Assembly (NCBI GenBank): GCA_017416915.1
Contig: JAFQAN010000029.1
Coordinates: 1 to 64,000, forward strand
Direction of reading: 5' to 3'
Origin: Alistipes sp.
GTDB lineage: Bacteria; Bacteroidota; Bacteroidia; Bacteroidales; Rikenellaceae
DNA: 64,000 bases
Part shown: piece after piece, positions 24,215-60,852 of the stretch
Layout of the letters: every line of letters starts with the position of its first letter
Position numbering within the stretch: position 1 is the stretch's first letter
Notes under the pieces: model-generated
Database searches by the model: none
The model's input: the letters and a program-made list of their open reading frames with translations, nothing else
What the model was told of the DNA's origin: nothing
Program-made: the position numbers and the translations under genes

Positions 24215-24344
24215 GCTTGGCGTCAGAAGGGTTGCAGATGTGTTCTATCGCAAAAGAGAGTACCGTGGGATAGTACTAAAACGTACAGCCCACGGTACTC
24301 TACTTTTTGGGATAGGACGCAGATGCGCCCTTATCACGCCAAGC
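24215..24344 (+). repeat. GTAC three-hairpin element E1
   Basis: The outer stem GCTTGGCGT (24215-24223) pairs perfectly with ACGCCAAGC (24336-24344). The central hairpin is AGAGTACCGTGGG/CCCACGGTACTCT (24257-24269/24289-24301) with apex GTAC-TAAAAC-GTAC. A third hairpin has an AGAT loop (GGACGC-AGAT-GCGCCC). The element ends 2 nt before the stop codon of the convergent CoA-transferase gene. Confidence 0.9.
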
Positions 24345-24346
24345 TA

Positions 24347-25660
24347 CTACTTCATATAGTTCTTTACGTAGTGGTGATGCGAGCCGTAACGGTTGAAGGC
24401 TGCCTCATCCAACGCCTCCTGTGCTGAGGGGTGAGCAACAGAGATTATAAGGCGCGCGCGCTCCTGCAAGCTCTTGCCATAGAGATCCACAGCACCATTC
24501 TCGGTTACAAACCAGTGGATGTGGTTACGGGTGGTAACAACACCTGCACCCTGGCTCAACATATCTGAAATCTTTGATACACCCTTGTTGGTGATTGAGG
24601 GCATTGCGATAATAGCCTTACCACCCTTAGAGAGCGAAGCACCATAGATGAAGTCCACCTGACCACCTACGCCCGAGTAGAACTTACAACCCAGAGAGTC
24701 GGCACATACCTGACCGGTAATATCGACTTGGAGCGCCGAGTTGATGGCGGTAACCTTGTCGTTCTTAGCGATGACGAAGGGGTCGTTGGTGTAGCCTACG
24801 TCCATCATCAATACGCCAGGGTTGTCGTCGATGAAGTCGTAAACCTTCTGCGAACCCATAAGGAAGGTAGATACCATCTTGCCCTTATCGATATTCTTCA
24901 AAGCGCCGTTGATAACGCCCTTCTCAACGAGGGGAAGCACACCGTCAGCGAACATCTCGGTATGAACACCGAGGTTCTTGTGGTTGCCGAGCTGCGCAAG
25001 TACGGCGTTAGGAATAGCGCCGATACCCATCTGCAAGGTAGCACCATCCTCGATAAGACCTGCACAGAGGTTACCAATCTTGGTCTCTACCTCGTTGGGA
25101 GTGGTGAAGTGTGCCTCTTCGAGTGGCTGGTCGTCCTCAACAAAGAAGTTAATCTTCGACGAGTGAATCATAGCATCACCAAACGAGCGGGGAACATACT
25201 TATTTACCACAGCAATAACGTAGTCGGCGCACTCAACAGCTGCCAACGTAGCATCCACCGAGGTACCGAGCGACACGTAACCGTGCTTGTCGGGACGCGA
25301 CACCTGAATCATAGCCACGTTACAGGGTACAGCGCCCGAACGATAGAGCTTCTGTGTCTCGCTGAGGAAGATTGGAATATAGTCAGCAAAGCCGCTCTGC
25401 GTAACCTTACGTACGTTGCCACCTACGAAGAAAGAGTCGAGCTGGAATACACCCTCAAACTCGGGGTCAGCGTAGGGAGCAGGACCCTCGGTGTGGAGGT
25501 GGTGGATGTGAACATCCTTAAACTCGCCATTGCGGCCGCGGTCGCACATAGCCTTGATGAGGCACTGGGGAGCAGATGCCACAGAGCTAAGGTGAATATG
25601 ATCACCCGACTTGATACACTTAACAGCCTCAGCTGCAGTTGTAAACTTAATGTTGTTCAT
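24347..25660 (-). CDS. Acetyl-CoA hydrolase/CoA-transferase family enzyme
   Basis: 437 aa, family I CoA-transferase of the acetyl-CoA hydrolase / 4-hydroxybutyrate CoA-transferase (Cat1/Cat2/AbfT) type. The catalytic Glu sits in GVHTEMFADGV (about residue 235), and the CoA-binding GVGGQVDFIYGASLS loop is near 335. It moves CoA between short-chain acids, for example acetate with butyrate, succinate or 4-hydroxybutyrate; the acyl specificity cannot be read from sequence alone. It starts 28 nt after infB on the same strand, so it may be transcribed with the rimP-nusA-infB operon, an unusual partner. Confidence 0.9.
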   Translation of the reverse strand: MNNIKFTTAAEAVKCIKSGDHIHLSSVASAPQCLIKAMCDRGRNGEFKDVHIHHLHTEGPAPYADPEFEGVFQLDSFFVGGNVRKVTQSGFADYIPIFLSETQKLYRSGAVPCNVAMIQVSRPDKHGYVSLGTSVDATLAAVECADYVIAVVNKYVPRSFGDAMIHSSKINFFVEDDQPLEEAHFTTPNEVETKIGNLCAGLIEDGATLQMGIGAIPNAVLAQLGNHKNLGVHTEMFADGVLPLVEKGVINGALKNIDKGKMVSTFLMGSQKVYDFIDDNPGVLMMDVGYTNDPFVIAKNDKVTAINSALQVDITGQVCADSLGCKFYSGVGGQVDFIYGASLSKGGKAIIAMPSITNKGVSKISDMLSQGAGVVTTRNHIHWFVTENGAVDLYGKSLQERARLIISVAHPSAQEALDEAAFNRYGSHHHYVKNYMK

Positions 25661-25688
25661 GTCTTTAAGCTTTATTTAGGTTAATTAA

Positions 25689-28445
25689 CTATTTACGTTT
25701 TACCTCCACCTGCTCGTAGCCCTCGATAATATCGCCCACGCGAACATCGTTGTACGACTCGATGTTAAGACCGCAATCCTGACCCACGGTAACCTCCTTG
25801 ACGTCGTCCTTGAAGCGGCGCAACGAGCCGAGCTTACCTGTGTAGATGACGATACCATCACGGATGACACGTATGGGCGTGTTGCGCTGCATCTTACCCT
25901 CACGCACAATACATCCAGCAACGGTACCCACCTTCGAGATTTTGAAGGTCTCCAATACCTCCGTAGAGCATACTATCTCCTCCTTCATCACAGGCTCCAA
26001 CATACCCTCGATAGCGTCCTTAATCTCGTTGATAGCATCGTAGATAATCGAGTAGAGACGAATATCAATCTGCTCCTTCTCGGCAGCCTTACGTGCTGCC
26101 GCCGAGGGACGTACCTGGAAGCCGACGATGATGGCGTTAGAGGCCGCAGCAAGCAGTACGTCAGACTCCGAAATCTGACCCACCGCCGAGTGGATGACAT
26201 TCACCTGAACGCTCTCCTTAGAGAGCTTGATGAGCGAGCCAGACATAGCCTCCACCGAGCCATCCACATCACCCTTGACGATGATGTTAAGCTCCTTGAA
26301 CGAGCCGATAGCGATACGGCGACCAATCTCGTCGAGTGTTACGTGCTTCTGCGTCATTATGCCCTGCATACGCTGCAACTGCTCACGCTTGTTGGCAATC
26401 TCGCGCGCCGAGCGGTCGTCCTCCATAACGTTGAACGAGTCGCCCGCCTGTGGCGCACCGTTGAGACCAAGCACCTGCACAGGTGTTGAGGGTCCCGCCT
26501 CGGTAACCTTCTGACCATTCTCGTCGAACATCGCCTTAACACGACCTGTGTATGTTCCCGAGAGCAGCACATCGCCAACGCGCAACGTACCGTTCTGCAC
26601 CATAATCGTTGCCACATAGCCACGACCCTTGTCGAGCATCGACTCGATGACAGCACCCGACGCCTTGCGGTTGGGGTTGGCTTTGAGTTCGAGCATCTCC
26701 GCCTCCAACAGCACCTTTTCGAGGAGCTTGTCGAGGTTCATACCCTTCTTCGCCGACACCTCCTGGCTCTGATACTTACCGCCCCAATCCTCTACGAGGT
26801 AGTTCATCTGCGAAAGCTGCTCCTTGATATGGTCGGGGTTAGCCTGCGGCTTATCTATCTTGTTGATGGCGAACACCATAGGCACACCTGCTGCCGATGC
26901 GTGGTTGATTGCCTCAACCGTCTGGGGCATCACGCTATCGTCGGCAGCGACGATGATAATCGCCACATCGGTCATCTTAGCACCACGGGCGCGCATAGCG
27001 GTAAACGCCTCGTGTCCTGGGGTGTCAAGGAAGGTAATCTTCTGACCGTTAAGCTCCACCGAGTAGGCGCCGATATGCTGTGTGATACCTCCCGCCTCGC
27101 CCGCGGTAACGTTGGTCTTACGTATGTTGTCGAGTAGCGACGTCTTACCGTGATCGACGTGTCCCATAACCGTAACAATCGGGGGACGTGGCACGAGGTC
27201 CTCCTCGCTATCGACATCTGTCTCGATAGCCTCCTGTATCTCCACCGATACGAACTCCACAGAGAAGCCGAACTCCTCGGCAACGACCACCAGGGCCTCG
27301 GCGTCGAGACGCTGGTTGATAGATACCATAAGACCGAGGTTCATACACGCCGAGATAACCTCCATCGGCGATACGTTCATCATCGTAGCCAGCTCACTCA
27401 CGGTAACAAACTCCGTTACTTTGAGTACGCTGCGCTCCATCTGCTCGCGCTCCATCTCCTCGTTCATACGCTCACGTACCTCCTCGCGCTTCTCCTTGCG
27501 GTACTTCGCGCCCTTGGACTTAGTACCCTTCGCCGTCAGACGTGCCAACGTATCCTTAATCTGCTTCTGTACCTCCTCGTCCGACACCTCGGGGCGTACG
27601 ATGGGCTTGGGTTGCTGCTTCTGCTTCTTCTGCTTCTTATTGTTGTTGGCATTGGGCTGCTGAGCGTTGTTGCCGCCAGCATTGTTGTTGCCCTTGTTGC
27701 CACCCTTCTCTGGCTTGTTACCCTTGTTGCCCGCCTTGTTAATATCTACCTTCTCCTTGTCGAGGCGCTTGCGCTTGTGCTTGCCACCAGGCACCATATT
27801 AGACACGTCCATAGTACCCAGAATCTTAGGACCACCAAGCTGCTCTACCTGAGGACGATAGACACTATCGCGCTTAGGCTCTTCTGCTACGGGAGCGGGA
27901 GCGGGAGCAGGTGCAGGCTTCTCAACCTTAGGCTGAGGCTTAGGCTCCTCCACCTTGGGCTGGGGCTTAGCCTCCTCGCGCTTAGGCTCTTCTACGACGG
28001 GCTGGGGCTTAGGCTCCTCCTTCTTGGGCTGGGTCTCCTCTTTCTTTGCAGGCTCCTCAGCCTTTGCTGGCTCAGGCTTCTTGCCGCCGAGGTCTATCTT
28101 ACCCAAAATCTTGGGACCGCGCACCTCGTCCTTTACGCTGATGACGTTGCTCTTAATGACTACCTCTTCGTCATCACCCTCGTCGCCCCTCTGTGCTGGC
28201 GAGTCGATGCTCACGGTTGTCTGCTTCTGCTGTATGCGCTCACGTATGGCGTTGCGCTCATTGCCCGACTGTCGATTCGAGCCAAACTCCTTCTCCAATG
28301 CGGCATATACCTCGGGGGTTACTGGCGACGAGGGCGAGCAGTCGCTCTGCAAGCCCTTGCGTTGGAGGTAGTCGGCGAGGGTGTTAAATCCCACCTTAAA
28401 CTCCTTAGCAACCTGTATAAGCCTTATCTTTTTACTGTTATCCAT
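25689..28445 (-). CDS. infB: Translation initiation factor IF-2
   Basis: 918 aa GTPase that delivers initiator tRNA to the 30S subunit. The N-terminus has the IF2_N helical segment ([25 protein letters not shown]). It is followed by a ~250-residue Pro/Glu/Lys/Ala and then Asn/Gly/Lys-rich linker (repeated EEPKPQP words). The G domain holds GHVDHGKT (about 426), DTPGHEAF and NKID, and domains II-IV complete the C-terminal half. Part of the conserved rimP-nusA-infB order, 26 nt after nusA. Confidence 0.97.
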
Positions 28446-28471
28446 CTAAATCTCCTTTCGTTAATCGTTCA

Positions 28472-34390: not shown

Positions 34391-34457
34391 TAGACGACGG
34401 GACTACGAGACGACGGGACTACGAGAACGATAGCAAATGGAGGTTTCTCGTAGTCCC
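34391..34457. repeat. 8-bp array with perfect inverted repeat
   Basis: GACGACGGGACTACGA units (34394-34426) are followed by their inversion. GGGACTACGAGA (34415-34426) and TCTCGTAGTCCC (34446-34457) form a 12-bp perfect stem with a 19-nt loop. It is the same 8-bp unit as in the larger modules. Confidence 0.75.
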
Positions 34458-34521
34458 GCTCATTTTACGCTAAGCCTCAAAGAGATACATCGCAAAGAGC
34501 GAGATAAGAGAGAGAGCAAAA

Positions 34522-35330: not shown

Positions 35331-38456
<3,126 letters not shown>

Positions 38457-38583
38457 CTTGGCGTGATAAGGGGTCGATTGCGTCCCCTAACAAAAAATGC
38501 CGCCAATGGGACGTACGTTCAAGTACTACCCATCGACGGCATTTTTGCCGAGTGTAGCACTCGGCACCCTTCTGACACCAAGC
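38457..38583 (-). repeat. GTAC three-hairpin element E2 (inverted orientation)
   Basis: It starts directly after the beta-galactosidase stop codon. The outer stem is CTTGGCGT (38457-38464) with ACACCAAG. Inside are an AGGGG/CCCCT hairpin, the central hairpin AAAAATGCCG..ATGGG/CCCAT..CGGCATTTTT (38493-38546) with apex GTAC-GTTCAA-GTAC, and GCCGAGTG-TAG-CACTCGGC (38547-38565). T- and A-runs flank the central stem, suiting bidirectional termination. Confidence 0.88.
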
Positions 38584-38768
38584 TGCCTCGCGCGACTGGG
38601 AACACCTGAGAACGACTGGGAACACCTGAGAACGACTGAGTTTTTCTGCGGCTACTGACAACGCGCCCGGCTATTCTCAGTCTTTCTCAGCCATTCTTAG
38701 TCCCGCAGTCCCGCCGTCTCGTCGTTCCGCCGTCCCGCCGTCCCGCAATCAGGCGCGTTCCCACGAGG
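38584..38768 (-). repeat. Array module 2 (inverted)
   Basis: Reading the minus strand: 8-bp GGGACGGC/GAGACGGC units (about 38751-38700), then GCTGAGAAAGACTGAGAATA-like units, then CGTTCTCAGGTGTTCCCAGT units, and CGCGAGGCAG leading into element E2. The order of parts is the same as in the plus-strand modules. Confidence 0.8.
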
Positions 38769-46230: not shown

Positions 46231-46242
46231 GCGCGCGGGATA

Positions 46243-46520
46243 GTGGCGCAGCTGAGAGTGGCTGAGAAAGACTGGGAAAGACTGAGAAAGACTGAGAAAG
46301 ACTGAGAAAGACTGAGAAAGACTGAGAACGGCTGGGAACGGCTGAGAACGGCTGTGTTTTTCAGGGGACTTCGGGACTGCGAAACTGCGGGACTGCGGGA
46401 CTTCGAGACTGCGGGACTGCGGGACTTCGAGATAATGCGGGTTATGCCCGCATTATTTTTTGCAGTCTTGTCGTCTCGTTGTCTCGTCGGCGCGCCTCCC
46501 AGTCAATCGCGCGCTCCATC
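46243..46520. repeat. Array module 3 with inverted right arm
   Basis: About ten 10-bp units of GACTGAGAAA type (46255-46351) are followed by about nine 8-bp GGGACTGC/GAGACTGC units (46363-46431), a terminator hairpin, and then an inverted short copy of the module start (46465-46517, containing GGCGCGCC and CAATCGCGCGC). It lies between clpB and a co-oriented gene and has no GTAC element. Confidence 0.85.
46432..46462 (+). terminator. clpB terminator
   Basis: ATAATGCGGG (46432-46441) pairs perfectly with CCCGCATTAT (46447-46456), followed by TTTTT. It sits inside the repeat module. Confidence 0.9.
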
Positions 46521-46682
46521 CACTCCAAAAGACCAAAAAACCACTTTTCCGCACCCCTCTTACTCTAACCAAAATTACTTTTTTCACCCCTCCTTATAAC
46601 TACTTACCGCTTAAAAGCAGAATAAATGTTGCATAAATGCAAGAAACTCGCCATATTATGTAGGAGTTATGCAAAACTTTAC

Positions 46683-46690
46683 TATCTTTG
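46683..46690 (+). promoter_or_regulatory. -7 box of the surface lipoprotein gene
   Basis: TATCTTTG, 62 bp before ATG 46753; it excludes the upstream in-frame start at 46669. -33 is weak. Confidence 0.55.
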
Positions 46691-46752
46691 CAACTGTGAG
46701 TACTGCGCAATATAGACGCGACAACTACACTAAAAACCAAATAATTATTTTT

Positions 46753-49497
46753 ATGAAAAACTTTTTTACCCATTTCTTTGCGGTAATCGCACTTGTAGCA
46801 GGTGTGGCGACTGTGGCTTGTACGCCCGAAGACCCACTTACCCCCAGTGCCGATGCTACCGTAAACGTTGAGCTTGTTTCGGCAGATCAAATCTCTGCAA
46901 CGCTCAAAATTACCGTTCAGGGCATCTCAGATTTTGCCTACTTGATGAGCGACAAGGATGACCTCGAAGCCTTCCAAATTATCGGCTCGGGCGAGAAGGT
47001 AACGGTTAGCGACACCTCAAAACCCCAGTCGTTCGACATCAAGATTGAAGATTTGGCGCCCTCGACAAACTACACCCTGCTAGTGGCTGCTCACGTCGTT
47101 GGCGGCGAGTTCTACGACGAGGTTGTCAAGGCGGAGTTCTCTACCACAGGTTTTGGTCAGGCACTTACCGTCATTGAGCAGATGTACGACGGCTTCAAAG
47201 TACACCTCACCATCCCCGAGGATGTTAAGCAGCGTGGCAATGCCATTCGCTACACGACAGCTTGTTTGCCTATGTTCAACTTGCAGTTGCAGAGAGAGTT
47301 CTTCCCTCAGGATATGCTTATGACCAACGCAGGTCAGGTAACCGAGACCGACAAGACCATCATCTACGACGAGGAGCACAACGTTCCGCGTGATGAGAAT
47401 GGCGACATTATTATCGACGAGGATGGCTTGTATGAGACATTTAGCGATCCTAAGACTCCTGGTGAGCCAGGCGTGTTCCTTGCAGGTGAGTTCTCGTGGT
47501 ACCACTTGCAGGAGTATGATCCCGAGCTTGGTCCTGGCAACAAGGATACAGGTCCATTTGGTTGGGGCGAGGGCTGGTTTGTAGCCGAGTACGACTACGC
47601 ATCGTTCGTCCCCGTATGGGATAGCCCCGACTTCGAGCCTTTGATGAGCGAGGAGTTCTGGACAGGCTACTACGAGCGTATTCAGGTTGATTGCTTGCCT
47701 CCTCAGCCTATGAAAGGCAATGTTGAGATTGAGGTATCGGATAAGAAGCCTATCGACGCCCTTATCCGCTTTACGCCCGATGATAGTGTGCTGATGTATA
47801 GCCTCTATATCGTTGAGGAGAGCGAGTATCAGGTAAACGTGTTGCCGTTGCTCAACAACAACGAGGAGTATATGCAGTGGTTCACAGCATCGTACTTCGC
47901 TATATTCAACGGTCCTACGATGACTGTTACCGACGGTTCTGCTACCGAGATATACCTCTCTGACTGGTATATCGACACCAAGAGCTATGCAGGTAAGACC
48001 TTCCGTGTATTTGTTACTGGTATGGGCGATATGTATGGACATACTCAGTGCTTCAACACTACCCAGTTCACTCTTCCCGAGAAGACGTTACCCGCACCCG
48101 AGGTTACCGTTACGGCTGTCGAGAGTAGCGACCCATACTCTATCACCTTCAACATCCGCAACACCAGCCCAGATGGTCAGCAGATTACCGAGGCTAAGTT
48201 CGTATGTAACTACGTTCGCGAGTTCAACACTATCCTGAATAGTTACAGCTACAACTCACTCTTGGAGCAGCTCGGTTATCCGTTTGGTCCTCAGGAGATA
48301 CAGGCAATTAATAGCTCTAAGGGCTTCGACCTCACCTTCACCAGCCGTGAGAACGCTACATCGCGTGTTGCCGTATTGGTTTACAACTGGGAGGGTACGT
48401 CGAACAACGTAAATGCCTCGATGTCGCCCGCCGTATGCGAGTACACCACGCCTCGTGCGCCCTACCGTCCTAAGGTGAACTCATCGCTGTTTACCGAGCT
48501 ACTTGGCGAGTGGGAGGCTACGGCATCTATGCGTAAGTATGTCGCTTCGGAGGATGGCAACGGTGGCACGTGGGAGGCTGACGGCACACAGACAAGCCCT
48601 GTAACCATCGCTGCGGGCGTTGAATACCCCGAGACACTTCCCAATAGCGTTTACGACACCTACGATAAGGCAGGCTTGTCGAAGTCTGAGACCGACGCTC
48701 TTTATACGGAGTTCAAGAAGCTCGCTAAGGATTACAACAACCGCACCCGTGGCTTCAACCGTCTGTTGTGCCTCGGCTACAACTTCACATCTAAGGAGTA
48801 TATGCTCGACTTGGTAGCTACGCCTTTCGACCTCTTCTGCGACGAGGAGTATGGCGCTGCCGACCTTAGCTTACTCTTCTACGACTTCGGTCCTAAGTGG
48901 AACTTGGAGATTGACCAGGATGGCTCGGTATGGTTGCCTCTCGATATGGAGCGCGAGTTCCCGATGGCAACTTGGAACTTCGGTATGGACTACACCTTCT
49001 ATATGTTCGGTATCGGCACTGAGACCTACATCGGTGGTCCGTTGTACAACCAGAAGGGCGAGCTGCTTACCGACGCGCGCTTCCCCGTGGAGGTATCGGA
49101 TGACCGCAACACCATCACCATCAAGCCTATCGAATATACCGACTCTAATGGCAAGAAGGAGACCTACTATCCTTGCATAGCACAGTTGCAGAATGGTCAG
49201 GCGTCGCCTCTTATGCCCTGCATTGGCGGCGATGTTGTCTTGAAGCGTAAGAGCGGTGCTAAGAGCTCTTCTACCTCTATCACGCCTCGTGGTAGCTACG
49301 AGCAGGCTGAGGCAATAAATGGTCTTAATGGCTATGTAGCTAAGCCTATGGCACGTCCTCACACGATGACACCTATGGATGTAGAGCTTATGGTTGATTA
49401 TAAGCGCATCGAGCTTGAAGAGCGTGTTGAGGCAGGCTCGGAGGGCTTCAACAAGCGTGTTGATAAGATGTTCGAGGAGCTTTACGGCATCAAGTAG
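46753..49497 (+). CDS. Large surface lipoprotein with FN3-like domain
   Basis: 914 aa from ATG 46753. Lipoprotein signal MKNFFTHFFAVIALVAGVATVAC. Residues ~32-130 (VNVELVSADQISATLKITVQG...LAPSTNYTLLVAAHVVGG) read like a fibronectin type III domain, and a second similar stretch begins around residue 430 (APEVTVTAVESSDPYSITFNI). The rest is beta-rich and acidic without a family I recognise. The C-terminus is helical (ELMVDYKRIELEERVEAGSEGFNKRVDKMFEELYGIK). It uses GTT/GCT/GGT-type codons more than neighbouring core genes, suggesting high expression or a distinct origin. Likely a surface binding or processing protein. Confidence 0.75.
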   Translation: MKNFFTHFFAVIALVAGVATVACTPEDPLTPSADATVNVELVSADQISATLKITVQGISDFAYLMSDKDDLEAFQIIGSGEKVTVSDTSKPQSFDIKIEDLAPSTNYTLLVAAHVVGGEFYDEVVKAEFSTTGFGQALTVIEQMYDGFKVHLTIPEDVKQRGNAIRYTTACLPMFNLQLQREFFPQDMLMTNAGQVTETDKTIIYDEEHNVPRDENGDIIIDEDGLYETFSDPKTPGEPGVFLAGEFSWYHLQEYDPELGPGNKDTGPFGWGEGWFVAEYDYASFVPVWDSPDFEPLMSEEFWTGYYERIQVDCLPPQPMKGNVEIEVSDKKPIDALIRFTPDDSVLMYSLYIVEESEYQVNVLPLLNNNEEYMQWFTASYFAIFNGPTMTVTDGSATEIYLSDWYIDTKSYAGKTFRVFVTGMGDMYGHTQCFNTTQFTLPEKTLPAPEVTVTAVESSDPYSITFNIRNTSPDGQQITEAKFVCNYVREFNTILNSYSYNSLLEQLGYPFGPQEIQAINSSKGFDLTFTSRENATSRVAVLVYNWEGTSNNVNASMSPAVCEYTTPRAPYRPKVNSSLFTELLGEWEATASMRKYVASEDGNGGTWEADGTQTSPVTIAAGVEYPETLPNSVYDTYDKAGLSKSETDALYTEFKKLAKDYNNRTRGFNRLLCLGYNFTSKEYMLDLVATPFDLFCDEEYGAADLSLLFYDFGPKWNLEIDQDGSVWLPLDMEREFPMATWNFGMDYTFYMFGIGTETYIGGPLYNQKGELLTDARFPVEVSDDRNTITIKPIEYTDSNGKKETYYPCIAQLQNGQASPLMPCIGGDVVLKRKSGAKSSSTSITPRGSYEQAEAINGLNGYVAKPMARPHTMTPMDVELMVDYKRIELEERVEAGSEGFNKRVDKMFEELYGIK

Positions 49498-49591
49498 TAT
49501 GATGTGATAAGGGGGCGCACTTGCCCCCTAACAAAAAGAGCCGTCGATGGGCAGTACTTTGACGTACACTCCATCGACGGCTCTTTTTTTT
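49498..49591 (-). repeat. GTAC element E3 (partial, inverted)
   Basis: Directly after the lipoprotein stop: GTGATAAG, then an AAGGGGGC/GCCCCCT hairpin, then a perfect 18-bp stem AAAAAGAGCCGTCGATGG/CCATCGACGGCTCTTTTT (49533-49550/49571-49588) with apex GTAC-TTTGAC-GTAC. The third hairpin and far outer arm are missing. It would act as a strong terminator for the upstream gene. Confidence 0.88.
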
Positions 49592-49596
49592 GAATA

Positions 49597-49780
49597 GGGC
49601 GCGCGATTGGCTGAGGGGCGCGCGATTGACTGGGAATGACTGAGAACGCCTAGGAAAGACTGGGAGGCGCGCCAACGGTCCGACAAGACTACGAGACGAC
49701 GAGACTGCGAGAACACTTAAAACACAGGCGTTCTCAGGCATTCTCAGTCGTGCGAGACTGTGCGAGGCTGTGCGAGGCAG
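49597..49780 (+). repeat. Array module 4
   Basis: GCGCGCGATTGACTGGGAAT-type start with 10-bp units (49597-49665), GGCGCGCCAACG spacer, 8-bp GAGACGAC units (about 49684-49712), then GGCGTTCTCAGGCATTCTCA and GTGCGAGGCT units leading into element E4a. Confidence 0.85.
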
Positions 49781-49904
49781 CTTGGCGTCAGAGTGGTGCA
49801 GCTGTGTCGCCGATAAAGAGATTGGGCTGGATGGATAGTACTGAGCGTACATTCCATTCAGCCCAATGATTGAGGCGGCGCAGATGCGCCGCTATCACGA
49901 CAAG
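49781..49904 (+). repeat. GTAC three-hairpin element E4a
   Basis: Outer arms CTTGGCGT and ACGACAAG. The central hairpin is ATTGGGCTGGATGGA/TCCATTCAGCCCAAT (49821-49835/49853-49867, one G-T pair) with apex GTAC-TGAGC-GTAC, followed by the GGCGGCGC-AGAT-GCGCCGC hairpin. Confidence 0.88.
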
Positions 49905-49906
49905 GG

Positions 49907-50032
49907 CTTGGCGTCAGAAGGGTGCCGAGTGCTACACTCGGCAAAAAAGCCGTCGATGGGTAGTACTAAAGCGTACGTCCCATTGACGGCATTTTTTGTT
50001 AGGGGACGCAATCGACCCCTTATCACGCCAAG
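49907..50032 (+). repeat. GTAC three-hairpin element E4b
   Basis: It begins two bases (GG) after E4a. Outer arms CTTGGCGT and ACGCCAAG pair fully. Hairpins: GCCGAGTG-CTA-CACTCGGC (49924-49942), GCCGTCGATGGG/CCCATTGACGGC (49949-49960/49979-49990) with apex GTAC-TAAAGC-GTAC, and AGGGG/CCCCT. A leftover terminal box TTATCACGACAAG (50034-50046) follows and touches the greA stop codon. Confidence 0.88.
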
Positions 50033-50046
50033 ATTATCACGACAAG

Positions 50047-50523
50047 CTAAATTGAGATATTAAGTATCTCCAACTTCAACACCCCTGCGGGTACCTGCAC
50101 CTCAACTACATCGCCAACCTTCTTGCCCAGTAGTGCCTTGGCAATAGGTGTGCCGATAGCGAGCTTGCCCTCGCGAAGGTTTGCCTCGTTCTCCGATACG
50201 ATGGTGTACTCCACCTCGCGCTTCACGTTGTGGTTGAGCAACTTCACGCGGCTGAGTATCTGCACCTTTGAGGTGTCAATCTTCGACTCGTCGATGATAC
50301 GAGCCTTCGACAGGGTGTTTTCGAGCTGCGCAATACGCATTTCGAGCAGACCCTGCGCCTCGCGCGCTGCGTCGTACTCGGCATTCTCCGAGAGGTCGCC
50401 CTTGTCGCGAGCCTCGGCAATAGCTTGTGCTGCTGCGGGACGCTCAACAGAGAGCATATGGTTTAGCTCCTCTTTAAGCTTGTTCATACCCTCCGCAGTA
50501 AGGTAGATAATCTCTTTACTCAT
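50047..50523 (-). CDS. greA: Transcription elongation factor GreA
   Basis: 158 aa, standard length. The N-terminal antiparallel coiled coil (YLTAEGMNKLKEELNHMLSVERPAAAQAIAEARDKGDLSENAEYDAAREAQGLLEMRIAQLE) carries the acidic DLSENAEYDAA tip that enters the polymerase secondary channel. The C-terminal FKBP-like domain (VGDVVEVQVPAGVLKLEILNISI) completes it. It rescues backtracked RNA polymerase. Monocistronic with a clear promoter. Confidence 0.96.
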   Translation of the reverse strand: MSKEIIYLTAEGMNKLKEELNHMLSVERPAAAQAIAEARDKGDLSENAEYDAAREAQGLLEMRIAQLENTLSKARIIDESKIDTSKVQILSRVKLLNHNVKREVEYTIVSENEANLREGKLAIGTPIAKALLGKKVGDVVEVQVPAGVLKLEILNISI

Positions 50524-51517: not shown

Positions 51518-51752
51518 GGCGACGGGACGACGGGATGACTGAAAGGCGCGCGATTGACTGAGAATGACTGGGAATGACTGGGAATGACTGGGAATGACTG
51601 GGTAGCGCGCCAACGAGACTACGAGACTGCGGGACGACGAGACGACGAGACGACGAGACCACGGGACTGCGAGACTGCGAGACTACCTGAAAAACTCAGG
51701 TGTTCTCAGGCATTCCCAGCCGTGCGAGGCTGTGCGAGGCAGTGCGAGGCAG
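51518..51752 (+). repeat. Array module 5
   Basis: A short 8-bp piece (51518-51535) comes first. Then GCGCGCGATTGACTGAGAAT opens five 10-bp units of GACTGGGAAT (51551-51604), GCGCGCCAACG follows, about nine 8-bp units (GAGACTAC, GGGACGAC; 51616-51686), then GTTCTCAGGCATTCCCAGCC and three GTGCGAGGC units. Confidence 0.87.
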
Positions 51753-51919
51753 CATGGCGTCAGAGTGCTACACACGCTCAGCAGCGAGATAAATTTTTGT
51801 CAGAAGGGATTAGATGTGGTGCTATCCCGAAAGATGGCTGGATGGGGGTGTACTTGGGCGTACATCCCCATTCAGACAGATGAGGGTAGTGCCGCAGATA
51901 ACCCCTTATCACAAAAATT
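51753..51919 (+). repeat. GTAC element E5b, preceded by truncated E5a
   Basis: 51753-51788 is the 5' part of one element (ATGGCGTCAGAGTG then a hairpin arm), cut off. E5b proper (51792-51919) has a different outer stem, AATTTTTGT/ACAAAAATT, still perfectly paired. It contains GGGAT/ATCCC and CTGGATGGGG/CCCCATTCAG hairpins with apex GTAC-TTGGGC-GTAC. Confidence 0.85.
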
Positions 51920-51920
51920 G

Positions 51921-52044
51921 CTTGGCGTGAGAGTGGTGCAGATGTGTCGCCGATAAAGAGATTGGGCTGGATGGATAGTACTGAGCGTACATTCCATTCA
52001 GCCCAATGATTGAGGCGGCGCAGATGCGCCGCTATAACGTCAAG
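51921..52044 (+). repeat. GTAC three-hairpin element E5c
   Basis: Outer arms CTTGGCGT and ACGTCAAG (one G-T). The central stem and apex (GTAC-TGAGC-GTAC) are nearly identical to E4a, so it is the same subtype. Confidence 0.87.
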
Positions 52045-52046
52045 GG

Positions 52047-52173
52047 CTTGGCGTCAGAAGTCGTGAGATGTGGTGCATCGCAAAAGAGAGTACCACGGGA
52101 TAGTACTAAAACGTACAGCCCGTGGTACTCTACTTTTTGGGATGTGCCGCAGATTGCGGCTTATCACGCCAAG
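52047..52173 (+). repeat. GTAC three-hairpin element E5d
   Basis: Two bases after E5c. The outer stem CTTGGCGT/ACGCCAAG is perfect. The central stem AGAGTACCACGGG/CCCGTGGTACTCT (52087-52099/52119-52131) is perfect and has apex GTAC-TAAAAC-GTAC; the last hairpin is GCCGCA-GAT-TGCGGC. It ends 3 nt before the groL stop codon. Confidence 0.9.
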
Positions 52174-52176
52174 CAA

Positions 52177-53811
52177 CTACATCATTCCTCCCATCCCTGC
52201 TGCACCTGCTGGCATACCTGGAAGAGGATTGTCCTCCTTCTTCTCAGCCAATACACACTCCGTGGTGAGGAACATCGAGGCGATAGATGCCGCATTCTCC
52301 AACGCTACGCGCGACACCTTCGTCGGGTCGATGATACCCGCAGCAAGCATATCCTCGTAGCGGTCGTCGCGAGCGTTATAGCCAAAGGCTCCGCTGCCCT
52401 CCTTAACCTTGTTTACCACTACCGAACCCTCGCCACCAGCATTGGCTACAATCTGGCGCAAAGGCTCCTCGATGGCGCGCTTAACAATCTGAATACCTGT
52501 GGTCTGGTCGTCATTCTCGCCCTTTAAGCCCTCCAACGACTCCACAGCGCGGATGTAGGCTACGCCACCACCAGGCACGATACCCTCCTCGACAGCGGCA
52601 CGTGTAGCTGCCAATGCATCATCGACACGGTCCTTCTTCTCCTTCATCTCTACCTCGGTAGCAGCACCTACGTAGAGTACCGCAACACCACCTGCGAGCT
52701 TCGCCAAGCGCTCCTGCAACTTCTCGCGGTCGTAGTCCGACGTAGCAACGTCGATAGAGGCGCGAATCTGCTGAACACGTGCAGCGATAGCCTCCTTCGA
52801 GCCTGCACCATCGACGATGGTGGTGTTCTCCTTATTGAGCGTTACCTTATCTGCCGTGCCGAGAGCTTCGAGACCAGCCTCCTCAATCTTCATACCCTTA
52901 TCTGCCGAGATTACCGTAGCACCCGTAAGCGTTGCTATATCCTCCAACATCTCCTTGCGGCGGTCGCCGAAGCCAGGCGCCTTACAAGCGGCAATCTTCA
53001 ACGTGCCACGCAACTTATTGACAACCAACGCCGACAGCGCCTCGCCATCGACATCCTCGGCGATGATAAGCAGCGAGCGGCCGCTCTGTGCCACAGGCTC
53101 CAAGATACCCATAATCTCCTTCATCGTAGATACCTTCTTGTCGGTGATGAGGATGTAGGGCTTGTCGAGCTGTGCCTCCATCTTCTCGGTGTCGGTGATG
53201 AAGTATGCCGAGATATAGCCACGGTCGAACTGCATACCCTCGACAACATCTACGTGAGTCTCAGTACCCTTAGCCTCCTCAACGGTGATGACACCCTCGT
53301 TATTCACCTTAGCCATAGCCTCGGCGATGAGCTTACCAATCTTCTTGTCGTTATTTGCCGAGATGGTTGCCACCTGCTCAATCTTATCGAAGTCCGAGCC
53401 TACAACCTGGCTCTGCTTTTTGAGCGACTCCACGACCTTCTCAACAGCAGCGTCAATACCACGTTTGAGGTCCATAGGGTTAGCACCAGCGGTAACATTC
53501 TTGATACCTACTGAGATAAGCGACTGCGCCAAGACCGTTGCCGTGGTGGTACCATCACCAGCGTCGTCATTGGTCTTCGATGCCACCTCGCGCACCATCT
53601 GCGCACCCATATTGGCAAACGTATCCTCCAACTCTACCTCCTTGGCCACGGTAACGCCATCTTTGGTTACCTGCGGCGCACCGAACTTCTTGTCGATGAT
53701 GACGTTACGTCCCTTAGGACCGAGCGTTACCTTCACGGCATTGCACAACGCATCAACACCCTCTTTGAGAAGCTCACGAGCCTCTACGTTATATCTAATC
53801 TCCTTTGCCAT
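52177..53811 (-). CDS. groL: Chaperonin GroEL (60 kDa)
   Basis: 544 aa. The ATP-binding [11 protein letters not shown] block (about 86-96), the [12 protein letters not shown] segment (about 404) and the GGM-rich C-terminal tail ([14 protein letters not shown]) are all present. It forms double heptameric rings that fold proteins with GroES. It follows groS by 21 nt on the same strand and ends beside a GTAC element. Confidence 0.98.
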
Positions 53812-56891: not shown

Positions 56892-56940
56892 AATCAGTAT
56901 TTTATATTATTATTTTGCTTACTCACTGCAAAAAGTTTAA

Positions 56941-56948: not shown

Positions 56949-56969
56949 TGAAAAATTTTTGCAATTTTC

Positions 56970-57000
56970 TTTGCAAATCAAAATAAATGTTCTACTTTTG
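56970..57000 (+). promoter_or_regulatory. tRNA-Gln promoter
   Basis: TTTG (56970-56973), 19-bp spacer, TACTTTTG (56993-57000), 18 bp before the tRNA. Confidence 0.8.
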
Positions 57001-57018
57001 CATCGTCAAAACAAATAT

Positions 57019-57089
57019 TGGGCTATGGTGTAATGGTAACACTACAGATTCTGGTCCTGTCATTCTTGGTTCGAATCCAGGTAGCCCAA
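57019..57089 (+). tRNA. tRNA-Gln(CTG)
   Basis: 71 nt. Acceptor TGGGCTA/TAGCCCA with discriminator A, D arm GTGT/ACAC, anticodon stem ACAGA/CCTGT with an A-C mismatch at the loop-closing pair, loop TTCTGGT giving anticodon CTG (57051-57053), T arm CTTGG/CCAGG. CCA is not encoded. Confidence 0.93.
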
Positions 57090-57094
57090 CTAAG

Positions 57095-57126
57095 AGCGGT
57101 CTTCTTTTTGAGGACTGCTTTTTTTG
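57095..57126 (+). terminator. tRNA-Gln terminator
   Basis: AGCGGTCTTC (57095-57104) pairs with GAGGACTGCT (57110-57119, two G-T pairs) before a T7 run. Confidence 0.88.
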
Positions 57127-57435
57127 TGTGGTTACGGGTGGTGGTTGGGTGTTTAAGGGCGTAGGCGAACGATTTCTTAGCGCTTGCAAATGCTCTGCGA
57201 GCATCTATGCAGGTGTAGTGCTTTGATTGTTGCAAGCAACACATAGCACTGCACTCGCATAGCAGCAAGCTGTTTTTGCAAGCGACATTCGACAATATGG
57301 CTACATCCATTGTTGGACTGCCTAATTCTCGCGGGGGATGGTTGAGCCGATATGATAGTGATTTATTGCTCGACCTGCGGTCTGCGCCTTTTTTTAGCGG
57401 TATCGGCTCCACTTCGAAAATGACTTTTCGAAGTA

Positions 57436-57454
57436 CGAATCCAGGTAGCCCAAC
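57436..57454 (+). pseudogene. tRNA-Gln 3' remnant
   Basis: CGAATCCAGGTAGCCCAAC repeats the last part of the tRNA-Gln (T loop to acceptor) without the rest of the gene. It starts one base after a perfect inverted repeat, ACTTCGAAAA/TTTTCGAAGT (57411-57420/57425-57434). Confidence 0.85.
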
Positions 57455-57457
57455 TAA

Positions 57458-57490
57458 GAGCGGTCTTCTTTTGAAGATCGCTTTTTTTTT
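57458..57490 (+). terminator. Duplicated tRNA terminator
   Basis: AGCGGTCTTC-TTTT-GAAGATCGCT followed by nine T: the second copy of the tRNA-Gln terminator, with better pairing than the first. Confidence 0.8.
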
Positions 57491-57636
57491 GTGTGGTTAC
57501 GGGTGGTGGTTGGGTATCGAGGCTGGGTCAAATTGTATTATAGCGCTTGCAAATGCTCTGCGAGCATCTATGCAGGTGTAGTGCTTTGATTGTTGCAAGC
57601 AACACATAGCACTGCACCTACCACGCTCGATGGCAC

Positions 57637-58038
57637 TCAACCTCGCGCAACGTCCCCCAGCTTAATCTCGATATTATCGCCCGACCACTGATTGATAAGC
57701 AGTCTGCGATTATAGACCACACTATCGCCATGGCTGATGCTAACAGCTACCTCAAAGGGCGCACTATCAGCAACAATACGCGACTCGGGAAGCGTGTTGG
57801 GGACTATATATATATATAAGGTAAGCGCATCGCCAGCAGCACCCTCTACAACAGTGCGGCGAGGGCGCTTATACCCTGCGGGGGCTGAGCTAAGCTGAGA
57901 GCCTACCGCCGCAACATCATCCGTGTAGGCGATATACCCCACTCGACTACCATCGGCACGCACCTCGCCCGAAAGAGCAAGATTGTAGCGCCAAAACTCC
58001 CGATAATCACACTCAATAGAGATACGATATGGTGCCAT
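57637..58038 (-). CDS. Hypothetical protein
   Basis: 133 aa, no signal peptide and no membrane segment. The composition looks like a real, beta-rich protein (MAPYRISIECDYREFWRYNLALSGEV ... ALTLYIYIVPNTLPESRIV ... SISHGDSVVYNRRLLINQWSGDNIEIKLGD). I do not recognise a family. It converges with the duplicated tRNA region and diverges from the DUF177 gene. A weak TATTTTTG box lies upstream (58087-58080 on the minus strand). Codon use agrees with the window. Confidence 0.55.
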   Translation of the reverse strand: MAPYRISIECDYREFWRYNLALSGEVRADGSRVGYIAYTDDVAAVGSQLSSAPAGYKRPRRTVVEGAAGDALTLYIYIVPNTLPESRIVADSAPFEVAVSISHGDSVVYNRRLLINQWSGDNIEIKLGDVARG

Positions 58039-58094
58039 AATGCGAAAAATATTTTATCATTTTACGTAAAACTTTGCTACAAAAATAATAATAA

Positions 58095-58126
58095 TTTGCA
58101 GATTTTGGTTTTTTGTTGTAAATTTG
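58095..58126 (+). promoter_or_regulatory. DUF177-rpmF-plsX promoter
   Basis: TTTG (58095-58098), 20-bp spacer, TAAATTTG (58119-58126), 19 bp before ATG 58145. Confidence 0.85.
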
Positions 58127-58144
58127 CAGACTAATTGTGCTGAA

Positions 58145-58720
58145 ATGAAGCAAATTATGTTGTACCGAATACCTTACAAAGGACTCAAAGCAGGAAGCTA
58201 TGACTTTGATTTTCAGGTAGATGACGCCCTATTTGAGGCGTACGACCGTGAGGAGATAAAGGGTGGCAAGTGCGAGGTGCGCGTAAAGCTCGACCGCAAA
58301 GAGACGATGTTGGAGCTTAACGTCATCATCTCAGGAGAGGTAATTTGTGAGTGCGACCGTTGTTTGGAAGATTGCGCAGTGGCTGTGGACTACGTAGGCG
58401 ACTTAGTAGTTAAGTTCTCGGACGAGATTGACGACTACGACGGCGAGGTGATGTGGTTATCGCCTACCGAAGATACACTCGACCTCACGCAGTACATATA
58501 CGAGAGCATAGTGCTATCACTACCCTACCGCCGCGTACATCCCGACGGCGAGTGCAACCCCGAGATGATAGCGGCACTAAACACTATAAGCGAGGAGGAG
58601 TTCGAGCGCATAGTGGCAGAGGCCGACAGCGAGGAGGAGGGCGACGAAGTGATGCTCAACGAGGATAACCGCGAACTACTCGAAAAGTTGAAGCGCCAAC
58701 TGGAAGAGGGCGCAGAGTAG
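58145..58720 (+). CDS. yceD: DUF177/YceD-family protein
   Basis: 191 aa from ATG 58145 (a second ATG at 58157 is possible). The middle contains the family's cysteine pair in VICECDRCLEDCAV, followed by the acidic EIDDYDGEVMWLSPTEDTLDLTQYIYESIVLSLPYRRVHPDG block. It is linked to 23S rRNA accumulation in other organisms. It stands in the conserved order DUF177-rpmF-plsX. Its C-terminal ~40 residues are highly acidic. Confidence 0.92.
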   Translation: MKQIMLYRIPYKGLKAGSYDFDFQVDDALFEAYDREEIKGGKCEVRVKLDRKETMLELNVIISGEVICECDRCLEDCAVAVDYVGDLVVKFSDEIDDYDGEVMWLSPTEDTLDLTQYIYESIVLSLPYRRVHPDGECNPEMIAALNTISEEEFERIVAEADSEEEGDEVMLNEDNRELLEKLKRQLEEGAE

Positions 58721-58827
58721 TGGCGATAACCCAAAAGAATAGATATAGTTGTCGCGTCGCGGGGCTTATCCGTCAGGCACCGAGGCAGACAAAAACGAAA
58801 CATAAAACTTAAAAATTATATTGTAAG

Positions 58828-59013
58828 ATGGCACATCCTAAACACAAAGTCTCTTCTACACGTCGAGACAAGAGAAGAACTCACTACAAGGCAGTAGTTC
58901 CTACCGTAGTTACCTGCTCGAACTGTGGTTCAGCAGTACTCTACCACCGCGTATGTCCCGAGTGCGGCTTCTATCGCGGTAAGCTCGCAATCGAGAAGAA
59001 GGCAGCTGAGTAG
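58828..59013 (+). CDS. rpmF: 50S ribosomal protein L32
   Basis: 61 aa: MAHPKHKVSSTRRDKRRTHY at the start, with the zinc-ribbon Cys pairs CSNCG and CPECG. A component of the large subunit near the peptidyl-transferase region. It is 107 nt after the DUF177 gene and upstream of plsX. Confidence 0.97.
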   Translation: MAHPKHKVSSTRRDKRRTHYKAVVPTVVTCSNCGSAVLYHRVCPECGFYRGKLAIEKKAAE

Positions 59014-59029
59014 TCTTCAAAACGTAGAA

Positions 59030-59066
59030 AGGGGCACACCGCAAAGGCGGTAGTGCTTCTTTTTGT
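59030..59066 (+). terminator. Hairpin between rpmF and plsX
   Basis: GCACACCGC and GCGGTAGTGC form an imperfect stem (59034-59055) followed by TTCTTTTTG. It may be a partial terminator that lowers plsX expression relative to rpmF. Confidence 0.65.
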
Positions 59067-59128
59067 TTTATGCGCCTACCACGTAGCAGCGTAGAGCGCA
59101 TCAGGTGTATAACAAAAAACCAAAAGTT

Positions 59129-60166
59129 ATGATAAAGATAGGTATCGATGCTATGGGCGGCGACTTCGCTCCCGAGGTAGCTGTCGAGGGCGCTGTGGCA
59201 GCATTGCAGAAGATTGGCAGCGACAGCCGCATTGTCCTCTTCGGCGACAAGGCACGTATCGAGGAGCTGTTAGCAAAGCACAACTGCCCCGCTACCAACT
59301 TCGACATCGTAGCCACAACACAGCTTATCGAGATGGGCGACCACCCCGCAAAGGCATTCGTTGCCAAGTCGGATTCGAGCATCACCGTAGGCTTCAAATA
59401 CCTCGCCGAGGGTAAGATTGATGGCTTCGCAAGTGCTGGCTCAACAGGCGCAATGATGGTAGGCTCGATGCAGGTGATTAAGCCCATCGAGGGTGTCATA
59501 CGCCCAGTATTGGCAACGCTCATACCCACAATATCGCCCACAAAGGGCATACAGCGCGGTATCCTTATGGACGTGGGTCTCAACGTAGATGCTAAGCCCG
59601 AGGTGCTGGCGCAATATGGTCTGCTCGGCTCGATATACGCTAAGTCGGTACTCGGCTTGGAGAACCCCCGTGTGTCGCTGCTTAACATTGGCGAGGAGGA
59701 GGGCAAGGGTAATGCCCAGTCGAAGGCTACATACGAGCTGATGAAGGCAGACGGTCGCTACAACTTCACGGGTAATGTCGAGGCATCGTACATCTTCACA
59801 GGCAAAATCGCCGATGTTGTCGTTGCCGACGCCTTCGTGGGTAACAGCATCCTCAAAATGGCAGAGGCCCTATACCGCATCAACTTCCGCTTGGGTGGCG
59901 GCAAGCCCCGCGTGAAGAACTTCTTGCGCCCCATACTCGGTCGCATCATACCTAAGCTATACTGGCAGAACGACTTCTGGGAGGCAATGAACGGCGAGAG
60001 CGTTGGCGGCTTGCAGGTTATGGGCATCAACGCCCCCGTGGTTATCGGCCACGGCAGCTCGTCGGCGCGCGCTATATGCTCGATGATTCTCGCCTTGGAG
60101 CGCGACATCAGAGGTAACTACCCCGCACATCTGCGCGAGGCGCTCAAAGAACACAACGAACAATAG
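59129..60166 (+). CDS. plsX: Phosphate acyltransferase PlsX
   Basis: 345 aa from ATG 59129 (IKIGIDAMGGDFAPEVAVEG). PlsX converts acyl-ACP to acyl-phosphate for phospholipid synthesis. Conserved segments include DAMGGD, GDHPAKAFVAKSDSSITVG, FASAGSTGAMMVG, LLNIGEEEGKGN and VVADAFVGNSILKMAE. It follows rpmF as usual, but fabH, the common next gene, is absent; a terminator and repeat region follow. Confidence 0.96.
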   Translation: MIKIGIDAMGGDFAPEVAVEGAVAALQKIGSDSRIVLFGDKARIEELLAKHNCPATNFDIVATTQLIEMGDHPAKAFVAKSDSSITVGFKYLAEGKIDGFASAGSTGAMMVGSMQVIKPIEGVIRPVLATLIPTISPTKGIQRGILMDVGLNVDAKPEVLAQYGLLGSIYAKSVLGLENPRVSLLNIGEEEGKGNAQSKATYELMKADGRYNFTGNVEASYIFTGKIADVVVADAFVGNSILKMAEALYRINFRLGGGKPRVKNFLRPILGRIIPKLYWQNDFWEAMNGESVGGLQVMGINAPVVIGHGSSSARAICSMILALERDIRGNYPAHLREALKEHNEQ

Positions 60167-60168
60167 TT

Positions 60169-60196
60169 AAAAGCCTGCTTCGAGCAGGCTTTTTTA
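60169..60196 (+). terminator. plsX terminator
   Basis: AAGCCTGCT-TCG-AGCAGGCTT (60171-60191) followed by TTTT. Confidence 0.92.
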
Positions 60197-60200
60197 TTAA

Positions 60201-60345
60201 GGGGGGGGGAGAGGGCGAGAGGACGAGAGGACGAGAGGACGAGAGGGCGCACCAACGAGACTGCGGGACAACGGGACAACAGAAAAACACAGGCGTTCTC
60301 AGACATTCTCAGGCGTTCTCAGTCGTGCGTGGCTGCGCGTGGCAA
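60201..60345 (+). repeat. Array module 6
   Basis: A G9 tract, GAGAGGAC units (60211-60246), GGCGCACCAACG spacer, GAGACTGC/GGGACAAC units, then GGCGTTCTCA-type 10-bp units and GTGCGTGGCT, leading into element E6a. The GACTGGGAAT part is missing here. Confidence 0.8.
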
Positions 60346-60470
60346 CTTGGCGTCAGAGTGGTGCAGCTACAACGCTCGGCGAATTTCGAGCCGATGGGCT
60401 GTACTAAGGCGTACTGCCCATTGGCGAGATAATTCGTTAGCGGAAGTAGATGCGCCGCTATCACGTCAAG
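60346..60470 (+). repeat. GTAC element E6a
   Basis: Outer arms CTTGGCGT and ACGTCAAG. The central hairpin GCCGATGGGC/GCCCATTGGC has apex GTAC-TAAGGC-GTAC. The last hairpin carries the TAGATGCGCC words. Confidence 0.83.
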
Positions 60471-60472
60471 GG

Positions 60473-60596
60473 CTTGGTGTCAGAGTGGTGTAGCAGTGTC
60501 GCCGATAAAGAGATTGGGCTGGATGGATAGTACTATGCGTACATTCCATTCAGCCCAATGATTGAGGCGGCGCTGATGCGCCGCTATCACGACAAG
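60473..60596 (+). repeat. GTAC element E6b
   Basis: Outer arms CTTGGTGT and ACGACAAG. The stem is of the same subtype as E4a and E5c, with apex GTAC-TATGC-GTAC. Confidence 0.85.
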
Positions 60597-60599
60597 ATG

Positions 60600-60726
60600 A
60601 ATTTTTGTCAGAAGGGGTTAGATGTGGTGCTATCCCGAAAGATGACTGGATGGGGGTGTACTTGGCGTACATCCCCATTCAGGCAGATGAGGGCAGTGCC
60701 GCAGATAGCCCCTTATCACAAAAATT
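60600..60726 (+). repeat. GTAC element E6c
   Basis: Outer stem AATTTTTGT/ACAAAAATT (60600-60608/60718-60726), perfectly paired and the same as in E5b. Apex GTAC-TTGGC-GTAC. Confidence 0.87.
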
Positions 60727-60727
60727 G

Positions 60728-60852
60728 CTTGGTGGGAGAAGGGTGCAGATGTGTTCTATCGCAAATGAAAGTACCGTGGGATAGTACAAAACGTACAGCC
60801 CACGGTACTTTACTTTTGGGATAGGACGCAGATGCGCCCTTATCTCGCTAAG
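60728..60852 (+). repeat. GTAC element E6d
   Basis: Central stem AAAGTACCGTGGG/CCCACGGTACTTT (60768-60780/60799-60811), perfect 13 bp, apex GTAC-AAAAC-GTAC. The outer arms (CTTGGTGG and TCGCTAAG) are degenerate. It ends 3 nt before the gdhA stop codon. Confidence 0.87.

Follow-up and report, generated by a model that had tools for sequence, protein, structure and literature searches.

A dispersed palindromic element of Alistipes that abuts stop codons and is oriented with replication

Introduction

The first 64,000 nucleotides (nt) of contig JAFQAN010000029.1 of an Alistipes sp. (GenBank assembly GCA_017416915.1), referred to here as the window, contain 12 copies of a palindromic unit of approximately 125-131 nt each, 11 of them full and one truncated to 92 nt. 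They form six arrays, starting at positions 24215, 38455, 49500, 49780, 51792 and 60345, with ten units on the + strand and two (38455-38583 and 49500-49591) on the - strand. What kind of element are these repeats, and what places them directly behind genes? All 12 copies listed in a preliminary description of the window were found where it had put them, as were the truncated ends that it gave at 51753 and 50034. The analysis demonstrated the fold of the unit and its compensatory evolution, the antisense position of its 3' end at a stop codon, its alignment with replication, and the existence of filled and empty sites at the same gene. Our tentative reading is that the unit is a dispersed non-coding palindrome of the ERIC/REP/RUP kind belonging to the Bacteroidales (mostly Alistipes), which enters at stop codons and acts as a transcript 3' boundary of leading-strand genes.

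Fold and covariation of the unit

Representatives of most subfamilies fold into a single long rod-like imperfect hairpin that carries conserved mismatches and ends in a UAC...GUA apex. Folding of five units as DNA and of four as RNA (both strands) gave z-scores between -6.2 and -12.4 relative to dinucleotide shuffles, and in each test none of 200 shuffles matched the fold energy of the unit. The preliminary description had pictured three hairpins enclosed by pairing outer arms. Pairing of the outer arms was confirmed in the window copies. Three hairpins on a four-way junction proved to be the RNA fold of lowest energy for a copy from one subfamily (GCCGAGTGC...GCACTCGGC) and not the general fold, other subfamily representatives forming one rod. 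The rod competes within this subfamily as well, the unit at 49906 being a rod as RNA and three hairpins as DNA.

Compensatory pairing is well supported. A sequence-based alignment of 21 units less than 88% alike (the hybrid unit L038:2128 was omitted from a set of 22) yielded 36 pairs, 25 of which show changes on both sides. Cells paired on the consensus structure in 91.9% of cases, compared with 74.0% in shuffles, and the covariation score was 0.503 compared with 0.06-0.12 for slid structures; both values were obtained on a structure derived from the same alignment, which favours that structure. Three mismatched places appear conserved by eye, namely GUCA/UCAC (a C-C mismatch), AGAU/CAGAU (tandem G-A) and the apex. 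A GTAC-N5/6-GTAC apex had been called invariant; it is present in 12 of 12 window copies, and its invariance does not hold in the alignment, where GUAC/GUAC is replaced by AUAC/GUAU (ATAC...GTAT in DNA) in two of 21 units with the pair kept. Two hybrid units were also noticed by eye (L038 2128-2253 and L035 2129-2252), in which the left half belongs to one subfamily, the right half to another, and the outer arms are mismatched. These are a sign of recombination between units.

Position at stop codons

Placement was measured over 785 kb of two genomes, that of the window (G000; contigs C5 and C20 and the window itself) and a second genome, G017 (contigs C11, C8 and C21), which together hold 64 arrays. 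The stop codon of an opposite-strand open reading frame (ORF) of at least 90 codons was found -8 to 17 nt from the 3' end of 52 of these arrays, at a distance of 0 or 1 in 28 of the 52; random intergenic points on a random strand reach stop abutment in 6.2% of cases with the same ORF list, spurious ORFs included. The same position was seen at 14 of 25 loci of other lineages, and at three loci outside the bacterial family (L186, L188 and L191) the stop codon of the ORF sits inside the element's own GTGATAA or TTATAA. Convergent genes flank 32 of 63 arrays, compared with convergence in 80 of 616 neighbouring gene pairs overall, and one array is in a divergent gap.

At the exact junctions (distance 0 or 1), TAA is joined to TTTG, TTTC or TTTTTG arms and TAG to CTTGG arms. 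Junction stop codons are TAA or TAG in 50 of 52 cases and TGA in two, both in G017. Stop codons TAA/TAG/TGA number 23/0/2 in filled genes of G017 (152/77/15 in its other genes) and 18/9/0 in filled genes of G000 (153/122/25 in its other genes). From this junction pattern we infer that the element enters at the stop codon, mostly behind TA, and supplies the third base itself.

Orthologous genes have filled sites in some species and empty ones in others. greA is followed by a unit in the window and at loci L069 and L074 and by what looks by eye like an ordinary terminator in G017, L067 and L068; at L070-L073, L075 and L082 the stretch shown contains no unit. The genes for a 410-aa and a 477-aa protein are filled in G017, with no unit within the 75 nt shown in G000, and a 1200-aa gene is filled in G000 (by a truncated unit), G017 and G022, the type of unit differing in G000.

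Orientation relative to replication

Leading and lagging strands were assigned from the skew at fourfold sites. In 54 of 64 arrays the + strand of the units corresponds to the lagging-sense strand; of the genes, 342 of 622 (55%) are on the leading strand (p 6e-7). Truncated units occur in seven of the 10 arrays of minority orientation and in two of the 54 of majority orientation (p 6e-6). On contigs of the window's genome with at least three places, 70 places among the matches listed have the contig's majority orientation and two do not. A 3.79-Mb contig of genome G051 carries ten + units below 1.11 Mb or above 3.25 Mb and nine - units at 1.81-2.25 Mb, a count that leaves out one weak reverse-strand image of a listed unit. 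GC skew there is positive in 11 of 11 stretches over 1.25-2.85 Mb and negative in eight of nine outside it (the ninth +0.009), so that 19 of 19 units are oriented with replication.

Strand asymmetry of the fold

G-U and A-C pairs were counted with a pairing score that treats both alike, in 80 full units (79 distinct) from loci picked by similarity. On the + strand, which is antisense to the gene, G-U pairs outnumber A-C pairs in all 80, with means of 5.2 and 0.86 per unit, and this strand is the more stable RNA in 70 of the 80. For other lineages, 30 loci of six genomes were fetched with a covariance model and 25 from five genomes were measured, five being omitted (L193, L195 and L208, cut by contig ends; L203, a reverse-strand image; L212, a neighbour unit whose array was already counted). 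All 25 had more G-U than A-C pairs and a more stable + strand. An earlier motif-based pass over 29 loci had placed a unit in 11, with G-U pairs greater in nine and equal in two; in that pass the unit of L221 lay far off the match, and L199 and L212 are the same unit. Eleven units of other families gave G-U greater in eight and equal in three, with + more stable in all 11, and the internal loops are conserved across families.

This better antisense fold may reflect selection for RNA transcribed from the convergent neighbour, selection for a folded DNA strand, or selection against strong folding of the lagging-strand template. Mutational strand bias was considered as a cause of the G-U excess and rejected on a partial argument, G-U and A-C pairs being uncounted in the stretches concerned: the fold energies of the two strands are not clearly different just upstream of the arrays, where + was more than 1 kcal lower in 18 of 32 and 17 of 27 stretches and higher in 12 and 10, against 45 and 59 of 114 for the control intergenic stretches.

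Terminator-like features

A folding-based finder detected a hairpin followed by a T tract, in gene direction, in 36 of the 52 stop-abutting arrays. In the 200 nt past the array, a further terminator-like site was present in 16 of 52, compared with 56 of 108 element-free transcript ends and 45 of 300 random windows. This finder replaced a stricter first one, limited to short loops and blind to hairpins with an internal loop below the apex, which had detected sites beyond the units in seven of 52 arrays, 61 of 115 element-free ends and 23 of 400 random windows. Since a hairpin with a T tract is frequent and further terminators are few, the element probably takes the terminator's place in many arrays but not in every one.

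T tracts on both strands were present in 20 of 28 gene-proximal and three of 33 distal units of G000, many of them from loci picked by dimer similarity, and in six of nine proximal and six of 10 distal units of G017. Because of this manner of picking and the lack of contrast in G017, the excess in proximal units is not relied on.

Distribution and search for a mobilising enzyme

That the repeat occurs well outside the window, on which the preliminary description had made its claim depend, was confirmed with a covariance model, which matched 115 of 268 genomes of the bacterial family (E of 1e-4 or better), 105 of them in the genus of the window and the other 10 in two further genera. Order-wide, among 393 genomes drawn (the window's own included), four outside the family match, with full-length and partly tandem copies. 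In the window's genome the model found at least 86 distinct places, and 149 matches were obtained there and in G017 alike among the 150 candidates scored, opposite-strand images possibly included; BLAST of the window's genome with one dimer, in which 40 of 136 candidates were scored, gave 73 matches, some of them perhaps opposite-strand images of others since these were counted too. On contig C5 of this genome, 24 units make up about 3 kb, the remaining intergenic DNA amounting to 14.7 kb, and several of the genome's contigs start or end inside units. By eye, the outer arms are partly genome-specific, CTTGG being common in G000 and AATTTC in G017. Carriage by phages or plasmids was considered and rejected: one dimer had no match in collections of phages and plasmids, and one exact 36-base pattern had none in viral contigs.

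Three types of enzyme were sought as movers. Y1_Tnp (RAYT) was not found in the window's genome, the assembly of which is 93% complete; it is present in five of 268 family genomes, one of which is among the 115 with elements. RVT_1 was likewise not found there; it occurs in 36 of the 115 element-bearing genomes and in 48 of the 153 others. IS630-type DDE_3 was above the cut-off in four of 268 family genomes and not in that of the window, one of the four (G273) having elements. As the assembly is incomplete, absence from it proves nothing alone, and the family-wide counts carry the argument. RAYT, reverse transcriptase and IS630-type transposase were rejected as movers for want of association, these three being the only transposase or recombinase families searched.

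Units and tracts in the window

The full + unit at 24215-24345 ends 1 nt from the stop codon of an opposite-strand gene of the acetyl-CoA hydrolase/transferase family (24347-25660). The full unit at 38455-38583 (-), of the three-hairpin subfamily and in the minority orientation, overlaps the stop codon of a + gene of the beta-galactosidase family (35337-38456). The other - unit (49500-49591) is 5'-truncated (profile positions 36-128) and lies 2 nt past the stop of a + gene assigned to no Pfam family (46669-49497); read in gene direction it amounts to a hairpin followed by eight T. Next to it is a pair of full + units, the distal one (49780-49905) without T tracts and the gene-proximal one (49906-50034) with T tracts that follow the central hairpin on either strand. 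A remnant of a unit 3' end (50035-50044, +) then adjoins the stop codon of the GreA gene (50047-50523, -), whose closest relatives in named genomes are those of Alistipes metagenome-assembled genomes (96, 94 and 93% identity).

Three full + units, at 51792-51919 (with AATTTTTG arms), 51920-52045 and 52046-52174, are preceded by what appears by eye to be a remnant of a unit 5' end with a leader (AGCGAGAT; 51753-51791, +), and the last of them is 2 nt from the stop of the chaperonin (Cpn60) gene (52177-53811, -). Four more full + units, at 60345-60471, 60472-60598, 60600-60726 (again with AATTTTTG arms) and 60727-60854, end 1 nt from the stop of a gene of the Glu/Leu/Phe/Val dehydrogenase family (60856-62199, -).

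Tracts of 10-mers and 8-mers lie on the 5' side of the arrays, at 23990-24214 (+; limits approximate, by eye) and, also with approximate limits, at 38584-38765 (-), 49592-49779 (+), 51530-51752 (+) and 60200-60344 (+). Similar tracts of 10-mers (e.g. CTGAGAAAGA) and 8-mers (e.g. GGGACTGC) occur with no hairpin unit at 46242-46500, 34393-34465 and 5127-5262 (limits approximate); these lie behind genes, contain complementary stretches and resemble the tracts ahead of the arrays. The words differ in the arrays of G017, another species (C11, C8 and C21; L166-L184), where purine 10-mers (e.g. GATAGGGAA) are followed, in many arrays after a TATCAC centre, by complementary pyrimidine 10-mers, and a leader like CACCTCAATCAGCGCAC often precedes the first unit. 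The tract period there is 10 bp, approximately one helical turn.

Two further repeats were noted in the window. At 57069-57617 several stretches recur approximately 364 bp apart, including the end of a tRNA (57019-57089) and an identical 77-bp stretch, and at 3544-3756 a 108-bp tandem repeat, approximately 97% alike, lies within the open reading frame 3146-4402.

Comparison with known repeats

A gathering-threshold Rfam scan of the window returned only two tRNAs and no match at the units, and a permissive scan of two loci gave two sub-threshold matches, one of which (MIR840, 28.7 bits against a cut-off of 150) fell on a unit; as far as Rfam is concerned, the earlier statement that the element matches no known RNA family was upheld by both scans. 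No description of these repeats was found in open-licence literature at the level of titles and the beginnings of abstracts, the Rfam-unnumbered motifs of PMC2864571 standing outside the comparison. On the basis of this literature search and of Rfam, the family is called undescribed here.

ERIC, which forms a long hairpin, is the closest in size of the systems compared. Passages of PMC2229807 describe ERIC/IRU as a 127-bp intergenic repeat, copies of which in Yersinia are co-transcribed and lower the stability of the upstream transcript, orientation being crucial. One dimer had no match in a collection of E. coli genomes (words of 11 bases, E up to 0.01) and, unlike ERIC, the Alistipes units show tandem arrays, compensatory subfamilies, antisense placement at stop codons and replication polarity.

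REPs are described in part of PMC3733652 as sequences of 20-40 bp with a GTAG or CGTC tag, the GTAG type often supplying the TAG stop to flanking ORFs. An earlier study, cited in a section of PMC12306157, proposed that 260 of 496 E. coli REPs regulate translation, with an effect when no more than 15 nt separate them from the stop; the same section gives a newer count of 446 of 4,072. The Alistipes units share with REPs their palindromy, high copy number and proximity to stop codons (the 52 of 64 arrays above), whereas they are 125-131 nt long and, as far as the alignments show by eye, bear neither a GTAG nor a CGTC tag at the foot. The earlier suggestion of a REP-like element stands as regards palindromy and nearness to stop codons and falls short as regards Y1_Tnp, given its absence from the window's genome and its rarity in the family.

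The BrickBuilt element belongs to a host of the order Bacteroidales. It is a miniature inverted-repeat transposable element of Porphyromonas gingivalis in which a minisatellite tract with a 23-nt tandem unit lies within an inverted-repeat element, 49-591 nt from the nearest coding sequences (from passages of PMC4596501). The Alistipes hairpin unit, by contrast, abuts stop codons, and its tract consists of 8- and 10-mers. RUP, like Correia, counts among the IS630-type miniature elements. It is 107 bp long, has TA in its target sites and is thought to be moved in trans by IS630-Spn1 (again from passages of PMC2229807). The TA target is where it comes closest to the Alistipes junctions, at which TA is not strict; DDE_3 is rare in the family and not found in the window's genome. 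Integron attC sites are folded imperfect palindromes behind stop codons, with the antisense strand as the active fold, whereas the genes that flank the units in the window include housekeeping genes such as those of GreA and Cpn60 and do not form a cassette array, a comparison made with neither an integrase search nor an attC motif scan. None of ERIC, REP and RUP fits all of the defining features tested, and the novelty lies in the combination of compensatory-evolving subfamilies, tandem arrays, antisense abutment of stop codons and fork polarity.

Discussion

In the reading that we tentatively prefer, the element would enter at a stop codon, mostly after TA, and its first base would complete the codon (TA+A ahead of TTTG-type arms, TA+G ahead of CTTGG arms), insertion being carried out by a putative and probably replication-coupled enzyme. 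Once inserted, the unit would form the 3' boundary of the gene. In the transcript of this gene the central hairpin, often with a T tract some 85 nt past the stop, would replace the usual terminator; in that of the convergent neighbour the better-folding strand would give a more stable rod and stop antisense read-through. Copies with the better-folding strand on the lagging-strand template would be unstable and be lost or truncated.

Several observations weigh against this reading. Sixteen of the 52 stop-abutting arrays have no hairpin and T tract by the folding-based finder, 12 of 52 have no terminator-like site inside or beyond, and the stricter first finder placed a site inside the units in only two of 52. 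The conserved mismatches GUCA/UCAC and AGAU/CAGAU, far from the central hairpin, are unexplained by termination. No opposite-strand stop codon was found within 40 nt of 12 of the 64 arrays, gene calls were made by a simple open-reading-frame method, and 31 of 63 arrays are outside convergent gaps. The depletion of TGA at junctions is non-significant (p 0.25 and 0.66), and the two TGA junctions mean that TA is not a strict target. At L193, in another genus, four G-U pairs face three A-C pairs and the - strand folds better. In the TAnnTTTG search, no promoter of its own for the + strand was seen upstream of the 64 arrays. Selection and insertion specificity are not separated by the placement pattern.

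It is possible, if doubtful, that the unit is instead a purely selfish single-strand DNA element without host function, an enzyme recognising the folded hairpin of one strand and inserting it at replication. Orientation relative to replication and to the stop codon would then both follow from insertion chemistry, which agrees with the replication polarity, the junction pattern, the strand-specific fold and the partly genome-specific outer arms. Such an element would also hit intergenic sites away from stop codons, and in most copies it is the less well folding strand that is exposed as lagging-strand template; the scarcity of Y1_Tnp and DDE_3 in the family and the filled site of the 1200-aa gene in three genomes, with another type in G000, which points to long residence, also argue against it. 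We regard as unlikely the proposal of a new class of mobile structured element in which one specific strand folds and insertion, coupled both to the replication fork and to gene ends, puts copies antisense at the stop codons of leading-strand genes; its enzyme would be unlike the RAYT, IS630 and reverse-transcriptase systems, and the host would use the element as a transcript end.

A free-standing small RNA from the + strand, in which the rod with its C-C and tandem G-A mismatches binds a protein, is improbable. The excess of G-U pairs on the + strand (seen in all 80 and all 25 units counted) and the internal loops conserved across families agree with it, and to this extent the structured RNA envisaged in the preliminary description is favoured. 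The word TAnnTTTG, a promoter word of Bacteroidetes, is however upstream on that strand in only four of 25 tandem and three of 39 other arrays (14 of 25 and two of 39 on the other strand), and a position fixed to the stop codon of a neighbour is needless for a free RNA gene. A retroelement, with + RNA copied from a nick past the stop codon to give antisense copies, fixed 3' ends and 5' truncations, is hardly tenable: the fixed 3' end and the 5'-truncated gene-proximal remnants agree with it, whereas RVT_1 was not found in the window's genome and is about as frequent in genomes without elements as in those with them.

The units break assemblies. If they serve as transcript ends, as we tentatively propose, the 3' untranslated regions of many genes would be defined by them. 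Placed by both stop codon and fork direction, they make a natural system in which to ask why unrelated palindromes such as REPs gather at stop codons, and in which to look for the missing mobilising enzyme.

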